In this document: one piece after another, positions 7,501 through 30,321 of the stretch
How the letters are laid out: the number at the start of each line of letters is the position of its first letter
How positions within the stretch are numbered: position 1 is the first letter of the stretch
Position numbers and translations under genes: made by a program
Notes under the pieces: generated by a model
Databases searched by the model: none
What the model saw: only the letters and a program-made list of their open reading frames with translations
Told to the model about the DNA's origin: nothing
Assembly: GCA_023489435.1 (NCBI GenBank)
Contig: JAMDCA010000004.1
Span: 1-32,913, forward strand
DNA: 32,913 nt
Source: Thermoplasmatota archaeon
Lineage (GTDB): Archaea; Thermoplasmatota; Thermoplasmata; Thermoplasmatales; Thermoplasmataceae
Direction: 5' to 3'

Positions 7501-7511
7501 GTTACAAGCCC

Positions 7512-10146: not shown

Positions 10147-10163
10147 TTCTCACACCTTTTCCC

Positions 10164-10571: not shown

Positions 10572-10591
10572 ACAATTAACCTCTAAGTTTT

Positions 10592-10611: not shown

Positions 10612-10643
10612 TACACTGTATTTCAGTCTATATTTAATATTTT

Positions 10644-10672: not shown

Positions 10673-10697
10673 TATACTACCTTTGCATTACTGTAAT

Positions 10698-11126: not shown

Positions 11127-11163
11127 GGCGAAAAGGTATATCGAACAAAAGCTTTACAGGTCG

Positions 11164-14737: not shown

Positions 14738-16096
14738 ATGGATTTTGAATTTTCATACAAAACAAGGACTTCGGACATTGAAAAAATCAAGGGAAACCCA
14801 TGTGACGTGTTAATTGTTGGTGGCGGCATTACCGGTGCTGGAGCTGCGAATATACTAGCTGCAAATGGGCTTAAAGTAGTCCTGGCAGAAAAGGGCGATT
14901 TCGCCTCTGGAACTAGCTCAGGATCTTCGAAGCTTATCCATGGGGGGCTCAGATACCTTGCACAGGGAGAAATAATGGAGGTAAGGAGCCTGCTCAAGGA
15001 GCGTAACTATCTCACCGCGAATACGGAAATTGTCAAACCCATGGATTTCCACATTCTGGTTGACCAGTATTCCTGGAGGAAAGGCACCCTGAGATTTGGT
15101 TTATATCTCTATAACCTCCTTTCTGGAAAATTCTCCATTCCCCGGTTCAGGGAGAACCACGGGCTCTACCCTGAATCAGTCAAGGGATACTTCGTCTACA
15201 ATGACTCTTACACGGATGATTCCCTGCTGGTTATTTCCAACATAGTAACTGCAAAGATGCATGGGGCCGTCTGCCTGAACTATGTCGAAGCTGTGGATTT
15301 CAGCACCAGGGACTCGGGGAGCGAAGTAACCCTTCTGGATCACACCACCGGGAAAAAGTTCTCTGTTGAACCGGAAGTGATAATCAATGCTGCCGGGCCG
15401 TGGGCTGGCGAGATTTCAAGCAAGCTTAACCTGAAGCTCGAGCACGGGCTGAAACTCAGCAAAGGCATACACCTGGTGGTGCCTGCGGACAAGATACCTG
15501 TAAAGAATGCCATCGCCTTCAGGACATATATCGACAAACGGCAGATGTTCATTATACCTCGGGGAGAAGTGGTGCACATTGGAACAACAGACACGTTTAC
15601 AAATGAACCTGATGATTTTAACATTACAGATGAGGATGTGGATTATATTGTGAAGAGCGTTTCGCACCTGTTCCCGGCGCTGAGGAAGGAGGACGTTATC
15701 ACTTCATTCTGTGGCATCCGCCCCCTCTTTGGGGAGGGAAATGATCCCGGTTCAGTGACAAGGGATTTTGAAGTGCGCATGAGGGGAAATGTGCTGAGCA
15801 TCCTTGGGGGGAAGATAACAAACTACAGAACAGCCTCCCAGGATACGGCACTGAAAGTTTCAGAAATGCTTGGAATGAAGTTAAAAGTGAAAGGGCTGCC
15901 AGTTATTGAATACAGGCGCCCTGATTTGAGCCTTCCAGAAAGGATTGAATATGAAATATACCACGAATGCCCCGTTTACACTGAAGACATCATGAGAAGA
16001 AGGGAAGCTGCAAGAATTTATACACTTGATATGGGAAAATCAATTGAGCCTGTGGTCAGGGAGCAGGTACAAAAGGCAGGTATGCTGAAAGGATGA
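14738..16096 (+). CDS. glpD: FAD-dependent glycerol-3-phosphate dehydrogenase (GlpD/GlpA-like)
   Basis: The 452-residue protein has the dinucleotide motif G-G-G-I-T-G (28-33) and the GlpD signature S-S-K-L-I-H-G-G-L-R-Y-L (63-74). Later family landmarks are A-G-P-W-A, I-P-R-G-E-V-V-H-I-G-T-T-D-T and G-G-K-I-T-N-Y-R. It should oxidise sn-glycerol 3-phosphate to DHAP, feeding electrons to the membrane quinone pool. The C-terminal helical domain is shorter than in bacterial GlpD (about 500-560 residues). No glpK or glpF is adjacent; instead it lies between the AGPS-like gene and a lipid kinase gene (4-nt overlap), pointing to lipid metabolism, for example DHAP supply or G3P removal. Confidence 0.88.
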   Translation: MDFEFSYKTRTSDIEKIKGNPCDVLIVGGGITGAGAANILAANGLKVVLAEKGDFASGTSSGSSKLIHGGLRYLAQGEIMEVRSLLKERNYLTANTEIVKPMDFHILVDQYSWRKGTLRFGLYLYNLLSGKFSIPRFRENHGLYPESVKGYFVYNDSYTDDSLLVISNIVTAKMHGAVCLNYVEAVDFSTRDSGSEVTLLDHTTGKKFSVEPEVIINAAGPWAGEISSKLNLKLEHGLKLSKGIHLVVPADKIPVKNAIAFRTYIDKRQMFIIPRGEVVHIGTTDTFTNEPDDFNITDEDVDYIVKSVSHLFPALRKEDVITSFCGIRPLFGEGNDPGSVTRDFEVRMRGNVLSILGGKITNYRTASQDTALKVSEMLGMKLKVKGLPVIEYRRPDLSLPERIEYEIYHECPVYTEDIMRRREAARIYTLDMGKSIEPVVREQVQKAGMLKG

Positions 16097-16956
16097 AGAT
16101 ATTTGCTATTGTCAATCCCATTGCAGGAGGAGGGTATGCCGGGGAAATCTACAGATCAGTACTCAAAGAATTCGAAAAGTTTGACCTTGAGTTCCATCTC
16201 ACTTCTGGCCCCGGCAACGCAACAGAACTGGCAAAGGCTGCCCTGGAAAACGGTTTCACCCACCTGGTATGCATTGGCGGCGATGGCACCCTTAACGAGA
16301 TAGTGCAGGCCATTGCAAAGAGCCCAATCATCCTTGTGCCCATTTCCGCCGGAACGGGTTCTGATTTTGTCAAGTCCACTAATATCAGGGATATCCCGTC
16401 TGTTGTCGAGGCAATGAACAATAACACAAGCCGGAGCATAGACCTTGGAAAGATAACAAGGAATGGCGAGACCAGATATTTCCTTAACATTCTCGAAGTT
16501 GGTTTTGGAGCCCAGGTAATGAAAAGGGTCAATTCAAGGAGGAAAAGCCACGATGGCCGATCCTTCACTTCGGCAGTGCTTGCAACTATACCATCCTACA
16601 GGCCATATGAAATAAGCATTACACACGAAAACGGTTCTGAATCCATGAAAGTGGCAGAGATAATCATTGCCAACGGCAGGTATTTTGGAGGAGGAATGCT
16701 TGCCGCCCCAAATGCAGATCTGGATGATGGCCTTCTGGATGTCCACATTGTAAAAGGTGCCGGAAAGCTCCAGCTCCTCACCAAACTGAGAAAACTGAAG
16801 GATGGGCGCCACATCAATGATCCAGTTGTTTCCTCTATGCGCAGTTCAAGCTTGAAGTTGGAAGGGAAAGCGCCCGTTGAAATTGACGGTGAGGACTTTG
16901 GGGAGCTTCCTGTTGAAGTTGGTGTTGAAAATAACGCCATCAGGCTTATAAATTGA
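16093..16956 (+). CDS. Diacylglycerol kinase-family lipid kinase (DagK/YegS/LCB5 type)
   Basis: The 287-residue protein has the kinase-domain motif G-G-D-G-T-L-N-E (62-69), the upstream N-P-I-A-G-G-G (8-14) nucleotide loop, and P-I-S-A-G-T-G-S-D-F-V. The second domain holds N-G-R-Y-F-G-G-G-M, A-P-N-A-D-L-D-D-G-L-L-D and E-I-D-G-E, all conserved in soluble bacterial diacylglycerol kinases and sphingosine-kinase relatives. It phosphorylates a lipid alcohol (diacylglycerol or an archaeal diether analogue) with ATP at the inner membrane face. It overlaps glpD by ATGA, so the three cluster genes are translationally linked. A secreted phospholipase C-type gene follows after 42 nt. Confidence 0.88.
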   Translation: MKIFAIVNPIAGGGYAGEIYRSVLKEFEKFDLEFHLTSGPGNATELAKAALENGFTHLVCIGGDGTLNEIVQAIAKSPIILVPISAGTGSDFVKSTNIRDIPSVVEAMNNNTSRSIDLGKITRNGETRYFLNILEVGFGAQVMKRVNSRRKSHDGRSFTSAVLATIPSYRPYEISITHENGSESMKVAEIIIANGRYFGGGMLAAPNADLDDGLLDVHIVKGAGKLQLLTKLRKLKDGRHINDPVVSSMRSSSLKLEGKAPVEIDGEDFGELPVEVGVENNAIRLIN

Positions 16957-16998
16957 CAGACAAAAATAATTTGTACATCTAAGTCAATTCTTACCTGT

Positions 16999-18486
16999 AT
17001 GGGTAAACTTTTACCTGCCATCTTCGCCATTATTTTATTTGCTATGGCTTTTGTCCCGGTTTCTTCAGGCTCATCGCCCCATTACTCCCCTTATGCTTCG
17101 GGTTCCGCTGCCACAAAAACGCCAATAAAGCACGTGGTTGAAATCATTATGGAAAACCGTGCCTTTGACAGCATGTTCGGCGTATATCCATTCGTCAACG
17201 GCCTTAGTGGAGGAAATCCTGAGAACCTCACAGTTCCTCTGAACCTCCTTTCCCTGAACAACCCGGCAGTCCTTAACCAACTCAAGGCTGTTCCCAATGG
17301 AACTTACACAAACGGGAATCCTGTGGAAGGGTACATTGCATACCACGGTGACATTAACCACGGGAAAATGAATGGCTTCCTGAATTACTCAGGCCCCAAT
17401 TCCATGGAATATTACACTGCAGCACAGCTGGCTCCCCTCTGGGACCTTGCTGAGCAATATGCCCTTGCAGACAACTATTTTGCAAGTGTCCTTTCTGAAA
17501 CAAGCCCCAACCGGTTAACCAACCTGGCTGGCTTTTCACCTGTCATCAATGATTACGGTCCGCCCCCATACATTCCATTCAACCAGACCATATTCGGTGA
17601 ACTCCAGAACCATGGGCTTCCATGGTCATACTATGTGGCAAATATTTCACAGGGCTCCCCTATCCTTGATTTCATCGGCGGAATACAGCAATACCAGAGC
17701 CACCTGCATAGCTGGAGTTCCTTTTACGGAAGCCTGCATAACAACACCACACCATCTGTCTCCTACCTGATGCCAATTGGAGGGGGCGCCAACGGCTACG
17801 ATATGGGTTCACCTGAGAATGTGCTGAAGGGTGAACTCTGGCTGCTCTACACCATTGAACAGATTATGCACAGCCCGGAATGGAACAGCACTGCCATATT
17901 CCTGACCTTTGATGAGGGCGGAGGAATGTATGACCAGGTTCCGCCTCCGGTGCTTGGAGGGCACCAGCTCGGCCAGAGAATACCCATGATTCTTATTTCA
18001 CCTTATGCAAAAGAGAACTACATTTCCAGCACAGAGATGAACCATGCCTCGATGCTTGGTTTCATAGACTACAACTGGAATCTTCCGGCACTGAACAGGT
18101 TTGTTTCCTTGAGCAATCTTCCCCTGGACATGTTCAACTTCAACCACAATTATGCCTGGGGAAACGCTATCCGGCCACCCGTCAATTTCTCCAACAGCTC
18201 AGTCGTGAGCATTCCCACAAGCGCCTATTTCACATTGGGCAAGATTCCCCATTCTGTTGCAGGCATGTTCCAGATGAAGCCGCAGATACCGTTTAACCAG
18301 TTGGGTTATAACAGGACAGGAAGTTCAGACTTCAATCTCTCACAGGTTTCCACTTCCTATTACAATACCTCCAATTATGCATATTACCCGTTCTTCACTT
18401 CCAGTTATGCCATTCTGGCACTGGCTGTAGCTGATGTGGGCATTGCTTCAGGGATATTCCACCTTGCAAGGAGGAGAAAGCAATGA
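16999..18486 (+). CDS. Secreted, membrane-anchored phosphoesterase (phospholipase C / acid phosphatase AcpA family)
   Basis: The 495-residue protein begins with a signal sequence (LPAIFAIILFAMAFVPVSS). The phosphoesterase motif M-E-N-R-A-F-D follows (51-57), where E-N in the family bind the metal; the later N-x-F-A-S-V-L-S-E-T-S-P-N-R and T-F-D-E-G-G-G-M-Y-D-Q-V segments match the bacterial phospholipase C/acid phosphatase family. Numerous sequons fit export. The C-terminus has one helix and a basic tail (R-R-R-K), so the enzyme is probably anchored outside the cell. Phospholipases C of this family release diacylglycerol from phospholipids; others are acid phosphatases. Its position beside a lipid kinase and GlpD supports a lipid substrate. 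It overlaps the next gene by ATGA. Confidence 0.85.
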   Translation: MGKLLPAIFAIILFAMAFVPVSSGSSPHYSPYASGSAATKTPIKHVVEIIMENRAFDSMFGVYPFVNGLSGGNPENLTVPLNLLSLNNPAVLNQLKAVPNGTYTNGNPVEGYIAYHGDINHGKMNGFLNYSGPNSMEYYTAAQLAPLWDLAEQYALADNYFASVLSETSPNRLTNLAGFSPVINDYGPPPYIPFNQTIFGELQNHGLPWSYYVANISQGSPILDFIGGIQQYQSHLHSWSSFYGSLHNNTTPSVSYLMPIGGGANGYDMGSPENVLKGELWLLYTIEQIMHSPEWNSTAIFLTFDEGGGMYDQVPPPVLGGHQLGQRIPMILISPYAKENYISSTEMNHASMLGFIDYNWNLPALNRFVSLSNLPLDMFNFNHNYAWGNAIRPPVNFSNSSVVSIPTSAYFTLGKIPHSVAGMFQMKPQIPFNQLGYNRTGSSDFNLSQVSTSYYNTSNYAYYPFFTSSYAILALAVADVGIASGIFHLARRRKQ

Positions 18487-19061
18487 GGAGCACGTTGACA
18501 AGATTGGTTCTCACTGTGCTTTTTTCACTATTTGCGACGTCAGTTGCAACAGTGTTGCTTTACTTCCTTCCCGTTCTTGACTATGTTGGCTATCAGACCC
18601 AGATTCCTGATATTCTGATAGGATATGCGATTGGAGCCCTTTTATTCTCAAGTGCCGGAACTGCTGTGGGGCTGTTTACAAGAAGGCCGGTGCTTTATGG
18701 GCTGGTTGCGTCAGCAGTGCTTGCGGTAGTGCTTGCATTTGCATACAGGATGACTGGAATCACCGATAACAGAGATCTAATAATTGGTGCTTTTGCCTCG
18801 CAGAGCTTTGCGCTCTTCTTTTCAGCACTCTTCCAATATTTCCGGTCTGATAAGAGGAAGTTGGTTGCAGCAGGAATATCTGTGTTAGTCTTCACCCTGC
18901 TGAATGTAGTAATATTTCTTGCAATGGCACTTATCTATTTAGATTTCGGGCAGGCTTACCTGCCCAACATCCTTGTCTCACTGGAAACATTATGTGCTGT
19001 TCTTGGCCTGGCAGTTATAATGTTGTTCCTGCTTGGAAAGCCGAAACCCCGTCCCACTTAA
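18483..19061 (+). CDS. Small polytopic membrane protein of the phosphoesterase operon
   Basis: The 192-residue protein has about five to six transmembrane helices (for example LVLTVLFSLFATSVATVLLY and LVAAGISVLVFTLLNVVIFL) and short basic loops, with a C-terminal K-P-K-P-R-P. No motif was recognised. The start overlaps the phosphoesterase stop (ATGA), so the two products are coupled; it may help export, anchor or transport the products of the secreted enzyme. Its stop overlaps the stop of the convergent ThDP-enzyme gene in the sequence TTAA. Confidence 0.7.
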   Translation: MRSTLTRLVLTVLFSLFATSVATVLLYFLPVLDYVGYQTQIPDILIGYAIGALLFSSAGTAVGLFTRRPVLYGLVASAVLAVVLAFAYRMTGITDNRDLIIGAFASQSFALFFSALFQYFRSDKRKLVAAGISVLVFTLLNVVIFLAMALIYLDFGQAYLPNILVSLETLCAVLGLAVIMLFLLGKPKPRPT

Positions 19062-20599
19062 ATGAACAGCCGGGGAACAGTCTTGGGGACATTTGCCACC
19101 AGGAGTTTTGCCTCATTCCCCCGGGCAAGCCATTCCATTTCCTTTAGCTCCGGATCGGCCACCCTTGATTCTATTCCCAGGGATTTTGCCACCTCAATAA
19201 TGTTGTAAGAGAAACTGAGGAATTCAGAATTCTCCACTCCGGGATAGAAACTGGCGGAGAAACTTTTCAGGATTGTGTAGCCTCCGTTATTCAAGACAAG
19301 TATCTTTACGGGAAGTTTGTACTTTGATATTGTCCAGAGCGTTTGGACTGTGTACATGAGCGATCCGTCCCCCACGATCTCCAGAACCTTGTCCTTGAGC
19401 ATGGAAATGCCTGCAGCTGCCGGAAGCCCCCAGCCGAGCTGCCCGCTCTTGGCTGTGAAATATGAATTCTGGCTGTATCCCATGTTCTTCCTGACCAGCA
19501 GAGATGAGGAGATTGCCTCATCCACAATTGTATACCCGGCGAAGAGTTTTCTGGCCTTCTGAAGGACATAGTTGACCCCCATTACCTTCTTTTCGCGCGC
19601 AATAAGCCCTGCGTTTCCCTGATCTTCAGGTTTGCGGAAGCCCCATTTCCCATTGGCCTTATGAAAAAGCGCCTGCAAAAACAGCTTTGGGTTGCTGATC
19701 ACGTAATCGCCCTGTTTGAATGAAGGGGACATTCCAACGGAAACAATTTTCTTGCCGGGCAGCAGTGGTGAAGGAAGGTAAGGATACAATGTGAATTCAC
19801 CTCCGAAATTCACTATGAGATCATAAGGCAGAAGTGCCATGTTTATTGCAGTTGTGGCAGGGGGCAGCTCACCGGCAAAATTTTCGCTGATGCTGTTGAA
19901 TGTGGCCCTGCTGGCAAGGGGCTCTGAGAATACCGGAACCCCCAGGTGCCCGGCAAGTTGCTCCAGCGCCACGATTCCATCATACTGGTCCAGTTCAGAG
20001 CCAGCAACAAATGCTGGGTTCTTTGCATTGCTGATTAGTTCAGAGATTCTTTCAACTTCACCAGAATTCAACAGCTGGACATTTGGGGTGGAATAATCAA
20101 GTCCCATATACTGGCTTTCCTGGTCCATGACCTCCATGGGAAACGACAGGAAAACCGGGCCAGATGGTGGTGAGAGACTAATGGAGTATGCTCTCTTCAT
20201 TGCCCGCTCAATATCTTCTGAGCCCCTGACTTCATATGAATATTTAACTGCAGAGCCCACCAGGCTTTTGAGATCATGCCACAATAGAGGCTCATAGAAA
20301 ACATGCCTGCTGTCCTGCTGGCCGGAAGTTATGATCACAGGGGACCTGTTCATCCTGGCTGTGTGAATGAAAGCCATTGAATTCGCAACTCCCGGGAGAG
20401 TGTGAAGATTAACAAGTGAGGGCTTTCCAGAATATTGTGCGTAGCCATCAGCCATTCCAACGGAAATAGAATCATGGAGGGTGAGTATGTAATCTGAAGT
20501 CCCCCTGAGCATTGGAATTTCAGTTGATCCCGGGTTGCCGAATATTTTGCTTATGCCAAGATCTTTCATAGTCCTGTTGAAAATCTCAAAGCCTTTCAT
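19058..20599 (-). CDS. ThDP-dependent 2-oxoacid decarboxylase, benzoylformate decarboxylase-like
   Basis: The roughly 513-residue protein aligns end to end with benzoylformate decarboxylase. The N-terminal motif F-G-N-P-G-S-T-E-I-P has the substrate-binding serine (Ser25), N-L-H-T carries a catalytic His (His66), and the cofactor motif G-D-G-S...L-N-N lies near the C-terminus. It should decarboxylate a 2-oxoacid to an aldehyde. Two active-site changes stand out: the glutamate that activates ThDP is Asp43 (L-H-D-S where the Pseudomonas enzyme has L-Q-E-A), and the second histidine (Y-H-Q-Y) is replaced by tyrosine (F-T-L-Y-P-Y). The ATG at 20599 overlaps the dehydrogenase stop by one nucleotide (TGATG), so a TTG at 20602 is not needed. 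Confidence 0.8.
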   Translation of the reverse strand: MKGFEIFNRTMKDLGISKIFGNPGSTEIPMLRGTSDYILTLHDSISVGMADGYAQYSGKPSLVNLHTLPGVANSMAFIHTARMNRSPVIITSGQQDSRHVFYEPLLWHDLKSLVGSAVKYSYEVRGSEDIERAMKRAYSISLSPPSGPVFLSFPMEVMDQESQYMGLDYSTPNVQLLNSGEVERISELISNAKNPAFVAGSELDQYDGIVALEQLAGHLGVPVFSEPLASRATFNSISENFAGELPPATTAINMALLPYDLIVNFGGEFTLYPYLPSPLLPGKKIVSVGMSPSFKQGDYVISNPKLFLQALFHKANGKWGFRKPEDQGNAGLIAREKKVMGVNYVLQKARKLFAGYTIVDEAISSSLLVRKNMGYSQNSYFTAKSGQLGWGLPAAAGISMLKDKVLEIVGDGSLMYTVQTLWTISKYKLPVKILVLNNGGYTILKSFSASFYPGVENSEFLSFSYNIIEVAKSLGIESRVADPELKEMEWLARGNEAKLLVANVPKTVPRLFI

Positions 20600-21528
20600 C
20601 AAAGCACCTGATAAGACGGTTCGAGACCCTGGACATATTTGAGCACATTGGAAATTGTATCTGCGATGAAGCGTTGCTGGCTCTCTACAGTAACACCAGC
20701 AATATGAGGTGAAAAAATAACATTTGGAACCTTGAAAAGCTCACTCCCGGGATCAGGGGGCTCCTGAGAATAGACGTCTATGCACGCCCTGACACCTTTT
20801 GACTTGATTGCCTTGATAAGAGCCGGTTCATCCACAACCTCTCCCCTGGAGGTGTTAATGAAGATTGCAGCATCCTTCATGAGATTGAACTCCTTTTCGC
20901 CGATGAATCTGTCCGTTTCTTTTGTGAGAGGCACATGCAGCGAAACAATGTCTGACCTGTGCAGGAGTTCATCCATTGGAGCATAAGACACTCCAAGGTT
21001 CTCCTCCTCTTCCTCTGGAATTCTTACCGGATCAGAATAGATTGTATTGACGCCGAAATATAGGAGCCTTTCAGCCAGCCTTTTTCCAATGGCACCCATG
21101 CCTATTATTCCAAATGTCTTCCCCATAAGCTCTGTGGAATTTGTCAGGAAAGGCCAGTTGCCGTTTACTATTTCGTTGTGGAAGTAAAGGAGGTTCTTCA
21201 GTTGAGCAAGCGCAACGGCGATTACATGCTCCGCCACACTTTCCTTGTTTGCGGTGGGAATGTTGGAAAGCTTCACTCCCCTTTTTCTCAGAGTTTCTGC
21301 ATCCACATTGTCGTAACCTGTGCTTGCGATCTGTACAAATTTCAGGTTTGGGAACTTCGAAACCAGTTGTTCATCCACTTTAGTGAATGTTGTGGCCACA
21401 AGAACTTCGGCATTGCTCTGCCCAAAATCTGTATTTGTGGTTATCTCTGCATCAGGGAGGATCTGCTTAATAGTTGCTTCAACACTTGTGGCGGGGAAAA
21501 ATGGGGGCAAAATGATTAAAATCTTCAC
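20599..21528 (-). CDS. NAD(P)-dependent D-2-hydroxyacid dehydrogenase
   Basis: Starting from the GTG at 21528, about 26 nt from a TATA-like box, the protein has roughly 309 residues. The NAD site G-M-G-A-I-G is followed by an acidic residue (Y-S-D-P), suggesting NAD preference. The catalytic set is present: Arg in N-T-S-R-G-E-V-V-D-E, Glu in Y-S-Q-E-P-P, and His in S-P-H-I-A-G. The family interconverts 2-oxoacids and D-2-hydroxyacids (glyoxylate, lactate, mandelate, phosphoglycerate); substrate choice is not readable. It is translationally coupled to the ThDP decarboxylase gene, so it probably feeds or drains the same 2-oxoacid. Confidence 0.85.
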   Translation of the reverse strand: MKILIILPPFFPATSVEATIKQILPDAEITTNTDFGQSNAEVLVATTFTKVDEQLVSKFPNLKFVQIASTGYDNVDAETLRKRGVKLSNIPTANKESVAEHVIAVALAQLKNLLYFHNEIVNGNWPFLTNSTELMGKTFGIIGMGAIGKRLAERLLYFGVNTIYSDPVRIPEEEEENLGVSYAPMDELLHRSDIVSLHVPLTKETDRFIGEKEFNLMKDAAIFINTSRGEVVDEPALIKAIKSKGVRACIDVYSQEPPDPGSELFKVPNVIFSPHIAGVTVESQQRFIADTISNVLKYVQGLEPSYQVL

Positions 21529-21550
21529 AAAATATAATGATTCATTCAAT

Positions 21551-21558
21551 ATTTATAT
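21551..21558 (-). promoter_or_regulatory. TATA-like box for the hydroxyacid dehydrogenase-decarboxylase genes
   Basis: On the minus strand ATATAAAT is centred about 26 nt upstream of the GTG at 21528, supporting that start and a leaderless transcript. Confidence 0.5.
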
Positions 21559-21581
21559 GTTCTTTTAGCGCAATTATGCAT

Positions 21582-21660
21582 AGAATTTATTGATATTTAT
21601 TATAAAAATTCAGAATTTATGTTGCAATAACGTTCCCATGAAAGAAAAACCAGAATTTAT
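21582..21660. repeat. Three phased direct repeats in the divergent intergenic region
   Basis: AGAATTTAT occurs at 21582-21590, 21612-21620 and 21652-21660, the last two as CAGAATTTAT. The spacings are 30 and 40 bp, about three and four helical turns, so all lie on one face of the DNA. They sit between the divergent dehydrogenase-decarboxylase and alcohol/aldehyde dehydrogenase arms and may bind a shared regulator. Confidence 0.45.
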
Positions 21661-21721
21661 TTGTTCAGAGAATCCCTGAAACAAAAGGAAAATTTCGTTT
21701 TTGCCTAACAAAAATTTAAGT

Positions 21722-22666
21722 ATGAATGGCAATAACATAATTCCGGTCATGAAGGGCATTGGGCTGATCAGCGACAAATTGGACTTTCATATACGCATAT
21801 CATTGAGTTTAAGCCAGGAAATGGGCCTCTTTTTTGCTAAAATAGAAGAACCCATCCCGCTCTATGCAACGCTCAACGATGATTCGGCGGAAATAAGCCT
21901 TTATCTTGGGGAAGAACTCAGGAAGAAATTTGACCCTTCTTTTGGCAAATTTACCCAGACCTCAAAGGGAAAGTTTGATATCCTCAACTTCAAGGCTGAG
22001 GAGCTGATGTTCGAATTCCAGATTTTCAGGGACATTACGAAAATTCCCTCAGTGGTGCCGGGCGGTTTCTACCTTAAAGAAGGGTGGGTGTACGCCGATT
22101 TCAGGTTTCACCATTCATCCCTGCAGAAAGTGAGCGAAATAATGAGGAGAATAACCGAAGCAAAGAACAGGATACACATCTCAAAACTCTCCCCCTCTCC
22201 CGGCCTGGAGGACACCCTAAGGGGAATAATCTCAAGAATTTCAATAACCAACGTTTCATTTTCATACACACCGGAACCCGGCTATCTTCCAAAGGAAGTG
22301 CTGGACGCCAGTCCCATGGCTGAGGCAAAACTTTACTCTGGCGGCATGGAGACAGAATATGAATCGGTGATTTATTCCTCAAAGATCTCCGGCAATGCCA
22401 TAACTGTTGATTCGCAGGAAGGTATCCATGAAACCATGTTTTCAACCCCTTACATGAGGAAACTTATGAGTGAGGTGAGAAGGGAGAAAATACCTGTTGC
22501 TTCGCTTATCGGACAATTTACGGAGACAGAGGTTTTGAACCATTTCTTTGTTCCAAGCTTTATAGCAGACCAGCTTCTTGAAACGATTTTCAGAACCACT
22601 GATGAAACAGGCTTAAAGGGCTTGAAAATCACCGCATACGAAGAACTGACGCCAGAAAATTTCTGA
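21722..22666 (+). CDS. Uncharacterised protein leading the alcohol/aldehyde dehydrogenase arm
   Basis: A TTG frame opens at 21701, but the ATG at 21722 is a more likely start (about 314 residues). The protein is soluble, without signal or membrane segments. It has a beta-rich first half (L-D-F-H-I-R-I-S-L-S-L, P-I-P-L-Y-A-T-L, A-E-I-S-L-Y-L-G-E-E-L) and a helical C-terminus ending L-K-I-T-A-Y-E-E-L-T-P-E-N-F. I recognise no family or catalytic motif. It heads the plus arm of the cluster, 70 nt upstream of the SCP2-domain gene. A sensor or accessory role for the pathway is conceivable. Confidence 0.6.
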   Translation: MNGNNIIPVMKGIGLISDKLDFHIRISLSLSQEMGLFFAKIEEPIPLYATLNDDSAEISLYLGEELRKKFDPSFGKFTQTSKGKFDILNFKAEELMFEFQIFRDITKIPSVVPGGFYLKEGWVYADFRFHHSSLQKVSEIMRRITEAKNRIHISKLSPSPGLEDTLRGIISRISITNVSFSYTPEPGYLPKEVLDASPMAEAKLYSGGMETEYESVIYSSKISGNAITVDSQEGIHETMFSTPYMRKLMSEVRREKIPVASLIGQFTETEVLNHFFVPSFIADQLLETIFRTTDETGLKGLKITAYEELTPENF

Positions 22667-22703
22667 TTTTTCCCGGAAAATCCCTGAGTCGCTGTGGTTC
22701 AGG

Positions 22704-22713
22704 AAAATTTATC
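22704..22713 (+). promoter_or_regulatory. TATA-like box upstream of the SCP2-domain gene
   Basis: AAAATTTATC is centred about 28 nt upstream of the ATG at 22736, supporting that start and a promoter internal to the plus arm. Confidence 0.4.
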
Positions 22714-22735
22714 TACGGTTATCAGTTGGTTCACC

Positions 22736-23137
22736 ATGCCAAAATTTCCCACTGAAGAATGGGCTTCTGAATATGTAGAGAAACTGAACGGCAATGCAGC
22801 TTACAAGGATGCAGGGAAGAACTGGGAAGGTGACATCACTTTCGTCATCAAAAGCGATGAGGGGCTTGAAAATGACGCTTTCCTGTATCTTGATCTTCAC
22901 CATGGGGAATGCAGGGGTTCAAAATTCACAGTTGACTCAAAGGATATTCCCCAGTCAGAATTCAAGTACATTGGAAAGTACTCCAACTGGGTCAGGCTCA
23001 TCAACAAGGAAATAGACCCGATCCAGGGGATCCTCACAGGCAAATTCAAACTTGAGGGCTCAATGATGAAGATCATGAAGTTCACAAAAGCTGCAAAGGA
23101 AATGGTAAGCACTGCTTCCAGCGTAAACACAGAGTGA
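22736..23137 (+). CDS. SCP2 (sterol carrier protein 2)-like domain protein
   Basis: The ATG at 22736 gives 133 residues, almost exactly one SCP2 domain. The family pattern is visible: an N-terminal helix (P-T-E-E-W-A-S-E-Y-V-E-K-L-N), five-stranded sheet, then the conserved end I-L-T-G-K-F-K-L-E-G-S-M-M-K-I-M-K. SCP2 domains enclose a hydrophobic tunnel and carry or present lipids, fatty acyl or aromatic compounds. The gene ends 7 nt before the alcohol dehydrogenase gene, so it may hold the hydrophobic aldehyde or alcohol for the neighbouring enzymes. An upstream in-frame start (22694) would overlap the promoter. Confidence 0.7.
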   Translation: MPKFPTEEWASEYVEKLNGNAAYKDAGKNWEGDITFVIKSDEGLENDAFLYLDLHHGECRGSKFTVDSKDIPQSEFKYIGKYSNWVRLINKEIDPIQGILTGKFKLEGSMMKIMKFTKAAKEMVSTASSVNTE

Positions 23138-23144
23138 TGAACTG

Positions 23145-24269
23145 ATGTGGTTCTTCAGGGCACCATCCATTGTTTTCGGTGAAGAGGCACTGTCTTTCCT
23201 GAATAACATTGACTTCAGGAGAATTGCAATCATCACGGATGAGAACATAAAAAGGGCCGGACTGGTGTCCCTGGTACTCAAGGAATTGCCAGAAAATTCT
23301 GAAAATATTGTGGTTTCCGACATCCCCGAGGAACCTACCCTTGCAGATATAAAGCAAAGAGCGACAGCTGTTGGAGAATTTGCACCTGACCTTATCATAG
23401 GACTAGGTGGAGGTTCAAGCATGGATGCTGCAAAGGCCATTTTCACTCTTTATGAACGGCCTGACATAGATATTTATGATATTACTCCACTGGTAAAGCT
23501 TAACCTGAGGAACAAGGCGCGGCTAATCCTGATTCCCACCACAAGCGGAACTGGTTCTGAGTGCACGTGGGCTGCTGTTCTCAGTGACGAGGACCACTCA
23601 AGGAAGAATGAACTTGCCTCAACCGAGATCATAGCAGATCACGCCATACTTGATCCTGCACTGGTACTGAAGCTTCCACCGGGCATTACGAGAAACACGG
23701 CCGTGGATGCCATAACGCATGCAGTGGAAGCCAGAAGCAGCCAGTGGCGCAACTACTATTCTGATATTTTTGCTGAGAAAGCCATTGAGCTCATAACCAC
23801 TAACCTTCCGCTGGTACTGAAGGACCCGGATAACAGGAAGGCCAGGGAAGAGGTGCATATAGGTGCATCAATGGCCGGGATTGCCTTTTCAAATGCACAG
23901 GTCGGTCTAGCGCATGCAATGGGGCATTCACTGGGGGCCCATTTCAGGATTCCCCATGGAATAACTGTTGCTTTGTATCTTCCACAGGTTGTTGAATTCA
24001 GTGAGCCAGAGGCAAAGGAGAGTTACAACAGCCTGATGATGAAGATGCCCCATGAATTCCGGAGGGGAAATCTGGCAGATTCCCTGAGAGCTTTCTTCAA
24101 ATCTGTTGGCCAGCCCCTGAACGTGAAGGATTGCGGAATTGACAGACAGAGTTACATGGAGAAAATGGATACCCTTGTTGCCCTGGCTGAGGAATCCACA
24201 GGTGGCGTTACAAACCCTAGAGAGGCTTCGTCCGCGGAACTCCGTGAAATGTTTGAGAAGGTAATTTGA
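23145..24269 (+). CDS. Iron-containing (group III) alcohol dehydrogenase
   Basis: The 374-residue protein is full length for the family. The NAD-binding loop G-G-G-S-S-M-D-A-A-K spans residues 88-97, and P-T-T-S-G-T-G-S-E follows. The metal ligands are Asp188, His192 (D-A-I-T-H-A-V-E-A), His257 and His271 (A-H-A-M-G-H...I-P-H-G). It interconverts a primary alcohol and an aldehyde in the cytosol. The TGATG overlap with the aldehyde dehydrogenase gene and closeness to the SCP2 gene mean the three are made together. It may reduce the aldehyde from the decarboxylase or oxidise an external alcohol. Confidence 0.92.
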   Translation: MWFFRAPSIVFGEEALSFLNNIDFRRIAIITDENIKRAGLVSLVLKELPENSENIVVSDIPEEPTLADIKQRATAVGEFAPDLIIGLGGGSSMDAAKAIFTLYERPDIDIYDITPLVKLNLRNKARLILIPTTSGTGSECTWAAVLSDEDHSRKNELASTEIIADHAILDPALVLKLPPGITRNTAVDAITHAVEARSSQWRNYYSDIFAEKAIELITTNLPLVLKDPDNRKAREEVHIGASMAGIAFSNAQVGLAHAMGHSLGAHFRIPHGITVALYLPQVVEFSEPEAKESYNSLMMKMPHEFRRGNLADSLRAFFKSVGQPLNVKDCGIDRQSYMEKMDTLVALAEESTGGVTNPREASSAELREMFEKVI

Positions 24270-25771
24270 TGGTTAAAACCTTGGAAATTTTTGGAAACTA
24301 TATTGATGGAAAAATAGACAAAGACGGAGAGGAAACCACTCTGCTGTCACCCATTGATGGATCAGAATTCGGGAAGTTATACCTGGCTGATGAGGAGAAA
24401 ACAAAGGCAGCAATAGACAGCGCTGAGTCCGCATTCAGAAAGTGGTCCATGACAACCCTGAACCAGAGGCAGGAGATCCTTTCAAAGCTCCTCAGTATCG
24501 TTGAGGAAAAAGCAGACAGGTATGCGTGGCTTGAAAGCGCAAACACTGGAAGAACTCTCAGGCAGAGCACATTCATGGATGTAACGATTGCCATAGAGCA
24601 CATAAGGTACTTTGCCACCACCACGGAATTTGTTGAATCCAGGACCATTGAACACCCTGAATACCCTGGAACAAAAGGCATAGTGCAGTACAGGCCATTT
24701 GGGGTTGTAGGAGGGGTCGCGCCATGGAATGTCCCTCTTCTCATGGCTGTCTGGAAAATCATGCCTGCCCTTCTGACCGGTAACACGGTTGTGCTTAAGC
24801 CAAGCCATTTTACCCCCGCAACTGCATTTGAACTTGCGAAGGACCTGAGCGCAGCGGGACTGCCTCCAGGAGTGCTCAACGTTGTGACCGGTGAAGGTTC
24901 AGTAGTGGGAACTACCCTGTCCAGAAGCGAGAAAATAAAAGTCTTGAGTTTTACAGGTTCCACCGCTACCGGCAAAAGGGTCTCCAGGGAAGCGGGAGGC
25001 ACTCTGAAGAAAATTCTCATGGAACTGGGAGGGAAATCCCCCAATATCGTGCTCAGTGATGCTGATTTGGACAAGGCTGCCAAGGGTGTTCTCTTCGGCA
25101 TATTCCTTCACTCCGGCCAGCTATGTGAGAGTGGCAGCAGGCTTCTGGTTCATGATGACATAAAGGAGAGGTTGCTCAGCAGGATCAAGTTCTATATGGA
25201 GAGAATGAAGCCGGGGAACCCCCTTGATATGGAAACGGACATAGGGGCCATCACCACGAGGGAGCAGAGAAGAAAGATAGAGGAACTGTACAACAGGGGC
25301 TTGGAAGAAGGCGCAAAATTATTCTTTTCACATAACCTTGGAACCGGAGTCCCCGAAGGGGGCTTCTACTTCCCTCCCACAGTATTTTCCGATGTCAGCA
25401 GCACCATGGATATCGCCCGGGAGGAGATATTCGGCCCGGTCCTCACCGTAACCGACTTTCACTCAGACGGAGAAGCCGCCGACATTGCCAACGGGTCCAA
25501 ATACGGATTGGCTGCAGGGATCTGGTCCAACAGCACCAGCAGGGCAACAGGTTTGGCCAATCGTATAGACTCTGGGACGGTGTGGATCAATGACTACCAC
25601 ATGATATCTGCTGCCGCCCCACGTGGAGGTTACAAGGAAAGCGGCATCGGAAGGGAACTCGGCCTGGACGGCATTATGGAATACACACAGACCAGGCATC
25701 TATTCTATGGTTCAGATGAAAACGCCTTGGGTGAGATTGCAAGAGGGTTAGTGGTTTCTGACCATGATTGA
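24269..25771 (+). CDS. NAD(P)-dependent aldehyde dehydrogenase
   Basis: The ATG at 24269 overlaps the alcohol dehydrogenase stop (TGATG) and gives 500 residues, normal for the superfamily. Catalytic residues are Asn154 (A-P-W-N), Lys177 (L-K-P-S), Glu252 (M-E-L-G-G-K-S) and Cys286 (G-Q-L-C-E-S-G). The cofactor-loop F-T-G-S-T-A-T-G-K is present. It oxidises an aldehyde to the carboxylic acid. With the upstream alcohol dehydrogenase and the divergent decarboxylase it completes a plausible route from 2-oxoacid to aldehyde to acid. The closest functional class (betaine, phenylacetaldehyde, benzaldehyde) cannot be decided by eye. Confidence 0.92.
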   Translation: MVKTLEIFGNYIDGKIDKDGEETTLLSPIDGSEFGKLYLADEEKTKAAIDSAESAFRKWSMTTLNQRQEILSKLLSIVEEKADRYAWLESANTGRTLRQSTFMDVTIAIEHIRYFATTTEFVESRTIEHPEYPGTKGIVQYRPFGVVGGVAPWNVPLLMAVWKIMPALLTGNTVVLKPSHFTPATAFELAKDLSAAGLPPGVLNVVTGEGSVVGTTLSRSEKIKVLSFTGSTATGKRVSREAGGTLKKILMELGGKSPNIVLSDADLDKAAKGVLFGIFLHSGQLCESGSRLLVHDDIKERLLSRIKFYMERMKPGNPLDMETDIGAITTREQRRKIEELYNRGLEEGAKLFFSHNLGTGVPEGGFYFPPTVFSDVSSTMDIAREEIFGPVLTVTDFHSDGEAADIANGSKYGLAAGIWSNSTSRATGLANRIDSGTVWINDYHMISAAAPRGGYKESGIGRELGLDGIMEYTQTRHLFYGSDENALGEIARGLVVSDHD

Positions 25772-26073: not shown

Positions 26074-27195
26074 TTATGGGTCTGCCGCACAGGTGGAACC
26101 AACTGGATTCAAAGAGGCCCACTGTTTCCTGGACCTCAACGCCAGGTACACTGAAAGTGACATGAGGACTAACACCAAACCTGTATTTGGGTCAGTACCA
26201 TAGCCGCCAAATATTCCAAAATCCTGTCCCACAAACCAGATTATGGCGGTGAGAGGTATGCTGGCAAATGAGGCAATTCTCGGCTTAACCATCCAGGTTA
26301 AACCCAACCCAAGGAGAGATACCACCAGAAGAATGTTCCAGACGGAATTATAATGGGACAGTATGACCGCTGTGCTGAATATCGCATATGAAAGCAGGTG
26401 CGGTTCGTAAATGAATGAGTAAGGCCCGGCCACGGCAGCAATGCTTCCCGGTACCCAGTATCCATTGGCGGGCAGTGCCTGCAAAAAGGCTGAAAAGATG
26501 AACAGTGCGGCAAAGGTATACCTGTAGATGCGCAATTCGTTTCTCTGGTTGAATTTCACCACGAGAATTGTGGATGCTATTGCGTAAAGCAGTGCAGCTC
26601 CGGGAAGGCCTGTGAGGATGCTCATGCCTATTCCAGGGGACCCAAGGCTCTCTGCAAATATCCATATGGCAATTGACCAGACAACAGAGATTGCAGCCAC
26701 AGGCGCAACAGTTCTCCTGGATTTGAGGGTGAGAAATGCCATGCCAAGGAATACCTGCAGTACAGCGGAGAGGGCGTTCATCAGGCTGGCATTTGCGGTC
26801 CACAGCATTATGATTGGCTGCGCCAGGGGCTGGAGCAGTGCCGGAAGTGCCTGCAGAGTGGGGACCAGAATAAATGGCCCATAACCGAAGGACATCTCAG
26901 GCTGGCCCTGGAGGATTCCATCGAGAACCCAGAGTGAGCCAAACGCTATCCTCGTGTAATTCCACAGTTTTGAATCGACTGCTGGAAACCTGAGGTCATA
27001 AACCCGGAGCATGAGGACGATGAGCGTTGAAATGATGAGAAGGACTGCAGTGTAGAAATAAAAACCGTAAACTATGGAATATGGCATGTTGTATTCCGTA
27101 AAATCCGATACAAAGATGTAAATGAGCGTCAGAAACGCAACTAATGATATTGCTACAGCAGTCACGAGTTTCAGTTGTGGCTTTTCTTCAGGCAT
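26074..27195 (-). CDS. Polytopic membrane protein of unknown function
   Basis: The 373-residue protein has about nine to ten transmembrane helices from residue 10 to near the C-terminus. Between helices are conserved-looking polar segments: W-V-L-D-G-I-L-Q-G-Q-P-E-M in the third region, A-E-S-L-G-S-P-G-I-G-M, and W-F-V-G-Q-D-F-G-I-F-G-G-Y-G-T-D-P-N-T-G near the end. Similar multi-pass proteins with L-Q-x-Q-P and E-x-x-G motifs occur in actinobacteria and archaea, without an assigned function to my knowledge. The acidic and glutamine residues within helices hint at ion or metal handling. It is the last gene on this strand before the convergent small protein. Confidence 0.65.
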   Translation of the reverse strand: MPEEKPQLKLVTAVAISLVAFLTLIYIFVSDFTEYNMPYSIVYGFYFYTAVLLIISTLIVLMLRVYDLRFPAVDSKLWNYTRIAFGSLWVLDGILQGQPEMSFGYGPFILVPTLQALPALLQPLAQPIIMLWTANASLMNALSAVLQVFLGMAFLTLKSRRTVAPVAAISVVWSIAIWIFAESLGSPGIGMSILTGLPGAALLYAIASTILVVKFNQRNELRIYRYTFAALFIFSAFLQALPANGYWVPGSIAAVAGPYSFIYEPHLLSYAIFSTAVILSHYNSVWNILLVVSLLGLGLTWMVKPRIASFASIPLTAIIWFVGQDFGIFGGYGTDPNTGLVLVLMSLSVYLALRSRKQWASLNPVGSTCAADP

Positions 27196-27277
27196 TTCGG
27201 GAAAATCCCTCCGTTTGTTATGTCACCGCATCCTTATATATTAGGTGCACGAATTCCTGGCCGAATCACGGAAATCA

Positions 27278-27397
27278 TCAGTATCCGAGACAGCACTGCA
27301 TTTCCAGTATGCATCCACACCGCGGGCACATGCTGGCGTACCTGTATGTCCTGCACTCATCGCAATCACATCCCCTTTCCATGCAGTCTGCGCACAT
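27278..27397 (-). CDS. 39-residue cysteine-rich zinc-ribbon-like small protein
   Basis: An ATG at 27397, directly after two in-frame stops, opens 39 codons. Ten are cysteine, at positions 2, 5, 10, 12, 15, 24, 27, 29, 36 and 37. C-A-D-C, C-D-C-D-E-C and C-P-R-C-G-C are paired knuckles as in zinc ribbons. The longer overlapping frame (27241-27486) covers the same DNA but looks like a random translation. The gene is upstream of the polytopic membrane protein gene, and its stop is 83 nt from that ATG. Relatives would be the tiny archaeal zinc-finger proteins, whose roles are mostly unknown. Confidence 0.55.
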   Translation of the reverse strand: MCADCMERGCDCDECRTYRYASMCPRCGCILEMQCCLGY

Positions 27398-27486
27398 AGC
27401 TTTCTATTAGTCATTCCCGCAGAACTATTAGTAAATAATTTAGCAGTTCCTGCAACAATGGGGGCTTCTCTGCGGTTCAACAGCAC

Positions 27487-28461
27487 TCACAGTCTGAATG
27501 CACTGCAGTCCCTGTCAGCCTCAAAGGCAAGATTTACAATCCTGACAACTTCAGCGCCATCCTTTCCGGTTGCAATGTGGCTTTCCCTGCCCTGCACCTT
27601 GTCGGTGAATGCCTTTATCTCCTCTCTGTAGACATTGACTCCCCTGAAATCCCTGATCTTCTTTCCATCCCTTAGAAGTGCTGATTCCACTGAAGTGGAG
27701 AACACCCCGGTTGCAACAAGTGTCCCTTCCGTACCATATACGGTGAGATTGTTCATGGGGCTCTTCATCTCCCTTGACGCAATAATATCCACTATTGTGG
27801 GGCCATACTGGAGTGTTACGTGCTCGGTGTGTTCTATGACTTTGCCTGTCGGGTTCCTGAAGGATGAAAGGCGATCTGGATGCTTCCCGAGAATGAAATT
27901 GATTGTATCCATGACATGGACTCCCGTTCCCATGACCGCTCCTCCGCCCACTTTTTCATCTTCTCTCCACCATTTGTTGTCAGGGTTCTCATAACTTCTG
28001 GCAGAAAGCGAAGCCCACATTCCTGTGATATATGAAACTTGACCCAGCGCTCCTGCTTGCAGTATCCTCTGGATTTCCCTGATGGCAGGATGAAACCGCA
28101 TGTGGAATCCAATAGCCAGAGTCAGGTGGTTTTCCTCTGCCAGTTTCACAAGTTCCTCCGCTTCTTCCGTCTTAAGGGTCATCTGCTTCTCAAGCAGGAC
28201 ATGCTTTCCCTTCTGAAGTGCCATTTTTGTTTGGTCATAATGAAGGAAATTTGGTGAAGCTATATACACTGCCTCGAATTCGCCGTTAACGAAGAAGGAA
28301 TCGAGATCGTCAAATGGCCTGGCGTTGTACTTCATTCCCTCCTTCCTGGCCTTGTCGATATTTCTGCTGTAAACCGCTGAAATAGAGTGGCCTGCTTCCC
28401 TGAATACTGGCATAACCCTATTGATGGCATGATTTCCCAATCCGGCAATTCCAAAATTCAT
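27487..28461 (-). CDS. Gfo/Idh/MocA-family NAD(P)-dependent oxidoreductase
   Basis: The 324-residue protein has an N-terminal Rossmann domain (G-I-A-G-L-G-N-H-A, residues 4-12), Y-I-A-S-P-N-F-L-H-Y-D, and the family E-K-P motif as E-K-Q (91-93). The second domain has the sheet typical of the family, with G-G-G-A-V-M-G-T-G-V-H-V-M-D-T, where the conserved Asp-His pair appears as H-V-M-D. Members oxidise or reduce sugars, inositols or sugar nucleotides. E-K-Q instead of E-K-P is an uncommon but seen variant. It is divergent from the CBS-domain gene. Substrate unknown. Confidence 0.85.
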   Translation of the reverse strand: MNFGIAGLGNHAINRVMPVFREAGHSISAVYSRNIDKARKEGMKYNARPFDDLDSFFVNGEFEAVYIASPNFLHYDQTKMALQKGKHVLLEKQMTLKTEEAEELVKLAEENHLTLAIGFHMRFHPAIREIQRILQAGALGQVSYITGMWASLSARSYENPDNKWWREDEKVGGGAVMGTGVHVMDTINFILGKHPDRLSSFRNPTGKVIEHTEHVTLQYGPTIVDIIASREMKSPMNNLTVYGTEGTLVATGVFSTSVESALLRDGKKIRDFRGVNVYREEIKAFTDKVQGRESHIATGKDGAEVVRIVNLAFEADRDCSAFRL

Positions 28462-28557
28462 GAGTAAAACATTCTTTCAGGAATAAATAAATTTAGCTAT
28501 TTCTGATGACAGGAAGAGCCCTTTTATGCTAGGATTGCATATTTTGATGGGTTCCAT

Positions 28558-29688
28558 ATGTTAGTTAAAGATATTATGACAAGGGAGCCAGTAATTATTG
28601 ACGCGCGCGAGGCTACTATTTCTGAAGCTATGGAAAAGATGAGGGGTATCGATGTGAGTCAGGTGCCTGCGGTAAACGGGCACAAATATGTTGGCATGCT
28701 GAACTACAGGGAGATCATGAGGAGGAGAAGCCTGCAGCTGACATCCAAAGCGCAGAATTATATCATAAGCACACCCGAACTGACACCGGATACGGAATTG
28801 GAGGAGGTTATTCGGCTTCTAGTGGACACGGGGCTTTCAGCATTCCCTGTCCTTGAAAAGAAGAAACTGACAGGGATTGTTTCCAGAAGCGACATTATCC
28901 GCAACCTTGACGAGATTCTCGGGAGCAGGGTACTCAGGAACAGGCAGATCATGTCAACTGAACCAGTTTTCGTACATGAGAATGACAGCGTAGATGAAGC
29001 AGCGATGAAGATGAGAGGCCTCGATGAAACAGAAATTCCAGTGCTGGATTCTGTTGAAAAACTTTCGGGAATTCTGAGGCTCGATGATATAGCTGCGGAT
29101 ACCTTCAAGAGGCACAAGGAAAAAATACACGGAAGGGAAGGTGGGGCAGGAGACAGAACCGGTGATAAGGTCAAGGTTGTCATCAAGAGTGCCTCCCTGA
29201 TGGACAATGCCCAGTGGGTTTTCCCTGAAGACAACATCACCAATGCTGCCAAAATGATGAGTGCCCGCAGGTTGCACATCGTGCCCGTAGTGGACCAGGA
29301 CATGCACGTTCAGGGCATCGTTGGAGTATCTGATATCATAGATGCACTGGACCAGAGGGAGAAGGAAGGAATTCTCATTTCTGTGTCAGGAGTAGAACCC
29401 GACGAGCAGGACATATATGACATAACATACAGCATGACAAGCAAGTTTCTCCTGAGATTTTCGAGAATTACAGGCATAAAGCATGGCAAATTCAACATAC
29501 ACGTGGCAAAGTACAGCCAGGAGGGAAAGGTGAAGTATTCCATCAGGACCAAGATTATTGCAGAACCACTGACAATGACTGTAGACTACTTTCACTGGAA
29601 CTACGGCAAAGGGCTTTCATCCATTTTCGATGCTTACGAGGAAAGACTGCAGAAGTGGAAGACAAAAAATTCCCACCAGCTTGCCTGA
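28558..29688 (+). CDS. Four-CBS-domain protein with C-terminal HPF-like domain
   Basis: The 376-residue protein has four CBS motifs, at roughly residues 3-56, 70-120, 128-182 and 208-266, with characteristic M-x-x-x-P-V and L-x-G-I-V-x-x-x-D-I segments. CBS pairs bind adenine nucleotides. The last 100 residues (271-372) run strand-helix-strand-strand-strand-helix: I-L-I-S-V-S-G, a long helix, H-G-K-F-N-I-H-V, V-K-Y-S-I-R-T-K-I, L-T-M-T-V-D-Y, then an amphipathic helix. This is the topology of the HPF/YfiA ribosome hibernation fold. CBS-containing proteins acting on ribosomes have been reported in archaea, so a role in ribosome inactivation under low energy is plausible, but inferred. Confidence 0.75.
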   Translation: MLVKDIMTREPVIIDAREATISEAMEKMRGIDVSQVPAVNGHKYVGMLNYREIMRRRSLQLTSKAQNYIISTPELTPDTELEEVIRLLVDTGLSAFPVLEKKKLTGIVSRSDIIRNLDEILGSRVLRNRQIMSTEPVFVHENDSVDEAAMKMRGLDETEIPVLDSVEKLSGILRLDDIAADTFKRHKEKIHGREGGAGDRTGDKVKVVIKSASLMDNAQWVFPEDNITNAAKMMSARRLHIVPVVDQDMHVQGIVGVSDIIDALDQREKEGILISVSGVEPDEQDIYDITYSMTSKFLLRFSRITGIKHGKFNIHVAKYSQEGKVKYSIRTKIIAEPLTMTVDYFHWNYGKGLSSIFDAYEERLQKWKTKNSHQLA

Positions 29689-29730
29689 TATCTTTGAAGA
29701 GGAGGGATAATTTTCCATTCCCCCCTCATT

Positions 29731-30321
29731 TCAATCTATTTTCCATTTTTTTTCATCCACTTTGAGGCGGATGAACTGCGTATTGCTGTATTCCGGCAAG
29801 CCCAGACCTTCGTGAGTCAGCGTATAAGAGATGGTACGCAGGACACCACCATGGGCCACAACAAGGATCTTATCATGTTCAGTTGCAAGAGCAACCTCCT
29901 CCAGAAAACTCCAGACTCTCCTGGTAAAGCTCTCCCAGGGTTCCACATCAGGGCCATTCTCTATTATTAATTCATCAGTTTCAAGTGTTCGTGCCTGTTC
30001 ATCTGGCATTCCGAAGTACCTGGCAACTTCAACAGACAGCAGGCCCTCAAATTTTCCAAGTCCCCTCTCCCTTAACCGGCTGTCTGTCGTAACGTTTCCG
30101 GTTTGTGTTATTTCAGAAACAATCTTTGCTGTGGTGTAAGCCCTCTGGAGATCGCTGGAATAGATTTTGCCTATTCCTTCCCCAGTAAGTGAGATGCCCA
30201 GTTGCCTGGCCTGCAACTGTCCAGTCTCATTTAATGGAATATCGGAGAAGCCCTGCCATTTTCTCATCCTGTTCCATTGAGTCTCCCCATGCCGGGCAAC
30301 TAGTATTTCTTTTGTGCTCAT
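29731..30321 (-). CDS. Histidine phosphatase (phosphoglycerate mutase-like)
   Basis: The 196-residue protein has the catalytic R-H-G-E motif (Arg10, His11, Gly12, Glu13), the second phosphate-pocket arginine in S-S-D-L-Q-R-A, Glu85 in L-R-E-R-G-L-G-K-F-E-G, and the second histidine in A-H-G-G-V (His157). These define the acid-phosphatase/mutase branch of the histidine phosphatase superfamily. The size is that of a phosphatase (CobC, SixA-larger, broad-specificity PhoE) rather than of a full glycolytic mutase of about 250 residues. Substrate unknown. It stands alone between a convergent CBS gene and the zinc-ribbon protein gene. Confidence 0.88.
   Translation of the reverse strand: MSTKEILVARHGETQWNRMRKWQGFSDIPLNETGQLQARQLGISLTGEGIGKIYSSDLQRAYTTAKIVSEITQTGNVTTDSRLRERGLGKFEGLLSVEVARYFGMPDEQARTLETDELIIENGPDVEPWESFTRRVWSFLEEVALATEHDKILVVAHGGVLRTISYTLTHEGLGLPEYSNTQFIRLKVDEKKWKID
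29746..29753 (+). terminator. Oligo-T terminator for the CBS-domain gene
   Basis: Eight consecutive T on the plus strand lie 58 nt after the stop of the CBS gene, within the 3' end of the convergent phosphatase gene. Just upstream, GAGGAGGG (29699-29706) can pair with CCCCCCTC (29720-29727) with one mismatch. Confidence 0.4.

Follow-up and report, generated by a model that had tools for sequence, protein, structure and literature searches.

Related pathways and the locus

Peroxisomal alkyl-dihydroxyacetonephosphate synthase (ADPS, or AGPS), the peroxisomal alpha-oxidation of phytanic acid (PhyH, HACL1, pristanal dehydrogenase and SCP2) and the mandelate pathway of Pseudomonas putida (MdlC and benzaldehyde dehydrogenase) are the described systems to which we compare a gene cluster at positions 13238-25771 of contig C34 of the archaeal genome G000 (82% complete, 1.35 Mb). 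The whole stretch of 32,913 nt is referred to as the window. ADPS acts as a synthase in eukaryotes. Its relative in the cluster shares the sequence family, the FAD-binding layout and the Arg/Tyr/His-His-His set, and its partners likewise act on glycerol phosphates; however, the cluster is archaeal, without a peroxisome, and because the neighbouring genes are oxidative and hydrolytic we propose a cleaving rather than a synthetic use. As in the alpha-oxidation of phytanic acid, a thiamine diphosphate (ThDP) enzyme would yield a one-carbon-shorter aldehyde for an aldehyde dehydrogenase (ALDH), with SCP2 as carrier and, as proposed here, 3-methyl-branched chains as the target. Unlike that pathway, the archaeal set is without PhyH, its ThDP enzyme resembles benzoylformate decarboxylase (BFDC), and the dehydrogenase partner of this enzyme would imply decarboxylation of a 2-oxoacid instead of CoA-thioester lyase chemistry. 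The mandelate pathway has the same reaction order and ThDP fold, whereas the archaeal cluster differs in its pocket residues, in an Asp for the activating Glu, in its lipid-gene context and in an NAD D-hydroxyacid dehydrogenase from another family.

We read 13238-25771 as one unit for the catabolism of alkyl-ether lipids and put the probability of this reading at about 0.5. A first-pass annotation had delimited a divergent, mandelate-like cluster at 19058-25771; this is one half of the unit, which reaches left to 13238 and includes the lipid genes. The ether-lipid context is well supported, and archaeal isoprenoid ether lipids are the probable substrates. With chain shortening by the ThDP enzyme and its partner included, the reading is tentative. 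Equally tentative is the idea that archaea have a pathway devoted to isoprenoid ether lipids: a reversed ADPS would cut the ether, and a CoA-free alpha-oxidation (dehydrogenase plus Asp-type ThDP decarboxylase) would shorten the methyl-branched chain. Archaeal ether lipids are very stable and serve as geological markers, and we know of no gene assignment for their breakdown. The open-licence literature yielded no published description of such a pathway (archaeal ADPS, ether-lipid catabolism, Ta1207), which is weak evidence. The features are as follows.

13238-14737, plus strand: ADPS/AGPS-like FAD enzyme (PDB 2uuu match), proposed to cleave ethers
14738-16096, plus strand: GlpD-like FAD glycerol-phosphate dehydrogenase/oxidase homologue (PDB 3da1, E=5e-60; NCBIfam GlpD models)
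16093-16956, plus strand: YegS/DAGK-type lipid kinase (PF00781, PF19279; TIGR00147 lipid kinase above cut-off)
16999-18486, plus strand: phospholipase C/acid phosphatase-type phosphoesterase (PF04185, E=6e-65; TIGR03397/TIGR03396 partial)
18483-19061, plus strand: small membrane protein accompanying the phosphoesterase (no Pfam family; 4-base overlap with the phosphoesterase gene)
19058-20599, minus strand: ThDP-dependent 2-oxoacid decarboxylase, BFDC-like (PF02776/PF00205/PF02775; annotated open reading frame 19058-20602)
20599-21549, minus strand: NAD-type D-2-hydroxyacid dehydrogenase (DH; PF02826, E=7e-58)
21529-21748, no strand: divergent promoter region (by-eye comparison with G016, G046 and G056)
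21701-22666, plus strand: Ta1207-family protein leading the plus arm, function not known (PF19020, E=2e-34; true start probably 21749)
22733-23137, plus strand: single-domain SCP2 lipid-carrier protein (PF02036, E=7e-10; open reading frame as called 22694-23137)
23145-24269, plus strand: iron-containing alcohol dehydrogenase (FeADH; PF00465/PF25137)
24266-25771, plus strand: ALDH (PF00171, E=6e-156)

Gene families and catalytic residues

Database matches give strong support for the assignment of the first two genes as ADPS- and GlpD-like. In a phmmer search against PDB, the product of 13238-14737 matched the alkyl-DHAP (dihydroxyacetonephosphate) synthase 2uuu with E=6e-53 and glycolate oxidase with 2e-5; an identity as glycolate or lactate oxidase was rejected, as the ADPS match was far better. 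The protein consists of FAD_binding_4 and FAD-oxidase_C domains, and its R296, Y433 and H467-469 align with R419, Y578 and H615-617 of guinea-pig AGPS, which we take to be the catalytic residues of that enzyme. Within the family these positions are kept almost throughout (R 15/15, Y 14/15, HHH in the 14/14 sequences covered), and a simple text search found a contiguous HHH in 17 of the 20 ADPS copies of a wider set. The phosphoesterase has a signal-peptide-like N terminus, and homologues of the small membrane protein follow it also in G002, G038, G050, G165 and G041.

The enzymes of the right-hand half are intact. Metal ligands of FeADH (D188, H192, H257/H261, H271) are invariant in 32 orthologues, as are C287, E253 and N155 of ALDH in 33 and, likewise in 33, the R235/E263/H282 of the DH together with Asp173 for NAD. 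Orthologues place the ATG of the ThDP gene at 20599 and the SCP2 start at 22733 (proteins beginning MxKFPS), and the DH probably starts at a GTG near 21528; its gene is translationally coupled to that of the ThDP enzyme.

Conserved co-location

Each protein was searched against 61 genomes in 19 genera of the same family of acidophilic archaea, which includes Ferroplasma acidarmanus (G026) and Thermoplasma isolates, and gene maps around the cluster were drawn for 60 relatives. Genes within 15 kb were counted as co-located. The lipid genes form a tight group: the ADPS-like gene lies near the lipid kinase in 32/36 genomes and in all 15 of 15 genera, near the GlpD-like gene in 27/36 genomes and near the phosphoesterase in 12 of 25. 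SCP2 ties them to the right-hand half, as it is found near ADPS in 21/32 genomes and 11/15 genera. This corresponds to a genus-level tail of ~1e-8 under a simple model that places genes at random and assumes the smallest genome size, a value that shared ancestry makes indicative only. Stronger than this statistic is the argument that the same genes are held together in about ten gene orders. In other genera, too, the four left-hand lipid genes are found about the SCP2-FeADH-ALDH triplet, and in Thermoplasmatales A_EUR_01 (L091) the full set GlpD-SCP2-FeADH-DAGK-ADPS-DH-ThDP-ALDH lies within ten kb.

Within the part described by the first-pass annotation, the five genes it had named (DH, ThDP enzyme, SCP2, FeADH and ALDH) are present, intact and in place, and its list left out the Ta1207-family gene. 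Their grouping goes beyond chance, with DH and ThDP genes adjacent in 35 of the 36 genomes having both and SCP2 and FeADH neighbours in 32 of 37; FeADH and ALDH are neighbours in 27/32. The functional link it had drawn between the two arms is supported by single co-directional runs DH-ThDP-SCP2-FeADH-ALDH in G013, G027, G052 and G060 (genera g10, g11 and g14) and by the proximity of the ThDP gene to ALDH in 20/28 genomes; for FeADH the figure is 15/30. The arms are together in about half of the genomes; in some genera (e.g., G011, G024, G031, G048) they are apart, an arrangement that the first-pass annotation had named as evidence against its reading. For this reason the arms are two separable modules, brought together repeatedly by selection.

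In G051, and in G165 from another family of the order, the place of ALDH beside FeADH-SCP2-ADPS-GlpD-DAGK is filled by an aldehyde:ferredoxin oxidoreductase (AOR), and a gene of similar size occupies this slot in G059. Because ALDH and AOR are unrelated, catalyse the same reaction and fill the same slot, we argue that the conserved step is the conversion of alcohol via aldehyde to acid. In deeper lineages of the Thermoplasmatota, ADPS stands beside GlpA-like genes, pyridine-nucleotide oxidoreductases and an FGGY (glycerol-type) kinase (L197 was scanned; L196, L198 and L201 have the same layout around ADPS), which is a glycerol-catabolic setting.

The ThDP decarboxylase

The ThDP protein has the TPP_enzyme N, M and C domains of the ThDP-binding decarboxylase fold with a GDG...N motif. 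Its best NCBIfam model is benzoylformate decarboxylase PRK07092 with 317 bits, below the equivalog cut-off of 493, and an AlphaFold model (pLDDT 90) has its best PDB matches among BFDC-type decarboxylases (TM 0.85-0.90); these nearest folds are non-CoA decarboxylases. The BFDC substrate pocket is nevertheless not retained. In P. putida numbering, His281 is replaced by Tyr in 32/32 orthologues, Thr377 by Ile in 31/32, Phe397 by Thr in 27/32 and Ala460 by Ile in 31/32. In BFD, A460I adds activity on pyruvate, and the converse I472A in pyruvate decarboxylase (PDC) lets in aromatics (PMC9063327). Together with the Tyr/Ile/Thr/Ile set, these reported effects point to a PDC-like pocket that would favour aliphatic 2-oxoacids and disfavour mandelate. 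Three of the four exchanges of an engineered BFDC (H281Y/T377P/F397T/A460I; PDB 4MPP, by its title) thus occur naturally here as Tyr, Thr and Ile, while the archaeal family differs from that variant in being natural and in having Ile at 377 and Asp at 47.

The activating Glu is, to our knowledge, near-universal among ThDP enzymes. All 31 readable members of the family have Asp at this position (31/31), as does a homologue from Thermoprotei (L100), in which the dehydrogenase gene is still adjacent. In BFDC, the corresponding Glu47 makes a hydrogen bond to N1' of the cofactor (PMC6028569). Every bacterial relative examined has Glu, with the exception of L113:10001-11572, where a tblastn alignment places Asp at this position. 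A natural Glu-to-Asp clade offers a test of the textbook catalytic rule.

Two further observations concern this gene. In G034 (L057:2600-4368) it lies in two open frames, possibly as a pseudogene or through a sequencing error, and the Ferroplasma genomes G009 and G026 have additional ThDP paralogues of 48-50% identity at a distance from the dehydrogenase gene (including L080:5933-7456).

A proposed route for ether-lipid breakdown

According to our reading, the phosphoesterase would take off the polar head, the lipid kinase would rephosphorylate the alkylglycerol and the GlpD-like enzyme would oxidise the free C2 hydroxyl to give alkyl-DHAP. The ADPS-like flavoenzyme would then free the chain by converting alkyl-DHAP to alcohol and DHAP, the opposite of its known synthetic chemistry. 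Since ADPS chemistry works beside a ketone, this route from monoalkylglycerol to DHAP and alkanol via kinase, C2 dehydrogenase and ADPS is plausible. SCP2 may carry the hydrophobic chain, which FeADH would oxidise from alkanol to aldehyde and ALDH or AOR from aldehyde to acid. The 3-methyl branch of archaeal chains (e.g., phytanate) blocks direct beta-oxidation, and one-carbon shortening is therefore needed. The ThDP pair may serve this purpose on methyl-branched 2-hydroxyacids: the DH would turn the 2-hydroxy form of the 3-methyl-branched acid into the 2-oxoacid, the decarboxylase would release CO2 and an aldehyde shorter by one carbon, and the same ALDH would oxidise the latter. The reaction order from hydroxyacid via oxoacid and aldehyde to acid or alcohol, already put forward in the first-pass annotation, is supported. 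Beta-oxidation was checked in G052 only, a complete genome with the full set whose gene content was read over 78% of its length; at 726-733 kb it has an operon with a HAD-hydratase fusion, CoA ligase, thiolase and acyl-CoA dehydrogenases. By naming an enzyme for each step, the conserved set makes ether-lipid breakdown testable at the bench in cultivable relatives of Thermoplasma and Ferroplasma.

Several observations weigh against this reading. ThDP and ADPS genes are within 15 kb in just 8/28 genomes; in genomes of genus g3, ADPS occurs with the SCP2 triplet but the ThDP-DH pair is absent, and Ferroplasma acidarmanus and others have the pair without ADPS. Presence and absence are weakly associated within genera (most pairs have p of about 0.03-0.2, ADPS and kinase 0.0005), in part because many of the family genomes are incomplete. 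The text search found no contiguous HHH in the ADPS copies of G048, G060 and G226 (including L203 and L204). The cleavage direction is assumed, ADPS being known as a synthase, and archaeol would have to lose its sn-2 ether through another activity ahead of the ADPS step. PhyH, the classical phytanoyl 2-hydroxylase, was found in 0/61 family genomes by a search with a positive control, and a P450 seen in the part of G052 that was read is unlinked to the cluster, which leaves 2-hydroxylation without an assigned gene. No P450 or other hydroxylase was among the checked neighbours of the ThDP pair (tRNA ligase, AMMECR1/MEMO/radical SAM, M50 peptidase, saccharopine dehydrogenase, POR and others). The gene families, the intact catalytic residues, the conserved grouping and the exchange of ALDH for AOR are observed, whereas the direction of the ADPS step, the identity of the substrate, the removal of the first ether and the source of the 2-hydroxyacid are parts of the scheme that we infer.

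Alternative explanations

It is possible, if rather unlikely, that two modules lie side by side: an ether-lipid/alkanol set (ADPS, GlpD, kinase, SCP2, FeADH, ALDH) and, independent of it, a DH-ThDP pair for the Ehrlich-like decarboxylation of aliphatic 2-oxoacids derived from amino acids, with only ALDH in common. Thermoplasmata live on peptides, which suits this explanation, as do the aliphatic-looking pocket, the lack of a known 2-hydroxylase for alpha-oxidation and the occurrence of each module without the other in several genera. Yet the invariant partner of the ThDP enzyme is a D-2-hydroxyacid dehydrogenase and not an aminotransferase, and both the five-gene runs in one direction with SCP2 and FeADH and the contiguous gene set of L091 argue for a joint function. 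We regard it as improbable that the cluster synthesises or remodels lipids, with ADPS, the GlpD-like enzyme and the kinase making non-isoprenoid alkyl ethers and the alcohol and aldehyde dehydrogenases supplying or recycling alkanols. While this would agree with the eukaryotic role of ADPS, and the kinase suits products of the phosphatidic-acid type, the surrounding genes encode oxidative and hydrolytic enzymes (phosphoesterase, ALDH or AOR, decarboxylase), beta-oxidation is encoded in G052, a glycerol kinase and GlpA-like genes accompany ADPS in the deeper lineages, and no acyltransferase or fatty acyl reductase was seen nearby in the gene maps.

A mandelate-like route for aromatic 2-hydroxyacids, as the first-pass annotation had it, appears very improbable. 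The closest solved structures and models are indeed benzoylformate decarboxylases, and the gene order suits the sequence hydroxyacid, oxoacid, aldehyde, acid; against this stand the family-wide exchange of the four pocket residues and the PRK07092 score. The mapped neighbourhoods contained no aromatic-degradation genes, and their conserved company consists of lipid enzymes.

Promoters, the Ta1207-family gene and flanking genes

A TATA-like box lies ~25 bases upstream of the DH gene, and the TATA-like AAATTTAAG precedes the likely start of the plus arm at 21749. Compared by eye and without statistics in four members of the genus, this suggests that each arm has its own TATA-like box with leaderless spacing. 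The Ta1207-family gene sits between the divergent start and SCP2; its product matches the fold of T. acidophilum Ta1207 (5m86, TM 0.71), and its close orthologues are confined to the genus of the window (G016, G046, G056). A role as a general lipid protein was rejected, as the sole match was Ta1207 itself and close orthologues are restricted to the genus.

Other genes recur beside parts of the cluster. In genera g17 and g2, the ThDP-DH pair is separated from FeADH-ALDH by genes for radical SAM, MEMO and AMMECR1 proteins, which are known to co-occur as a triad (L027:8643-11371; L033, L057, L069). An MFS transporter, an FGGY kinase and a PLP-dependent decarboxylase-like gene are found repeatedly beside the ThDP/ALDH module in g10, g12 and L089 (L044:14729-18970, L043, L049, L089:5187-9488).

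In the window, several long minus-strand open reading frames (860, 348, 351 and 384 aa) without a Pfam match occupy 1458-8912. Ahead of the lipid genes, at 9157-13172, are thioredoxin reductase and thioredoxin, followed by a TrmB-like regulator and a pair of ABC exporter genes that is kept in G016. After ALDH, at 26074-30321, follow a membrane protein, a Gfo/Idh/MocA oxidoreductase, a four-CBS-domain protein and a histidine phosphatase, in an order kept in G016 and G046.

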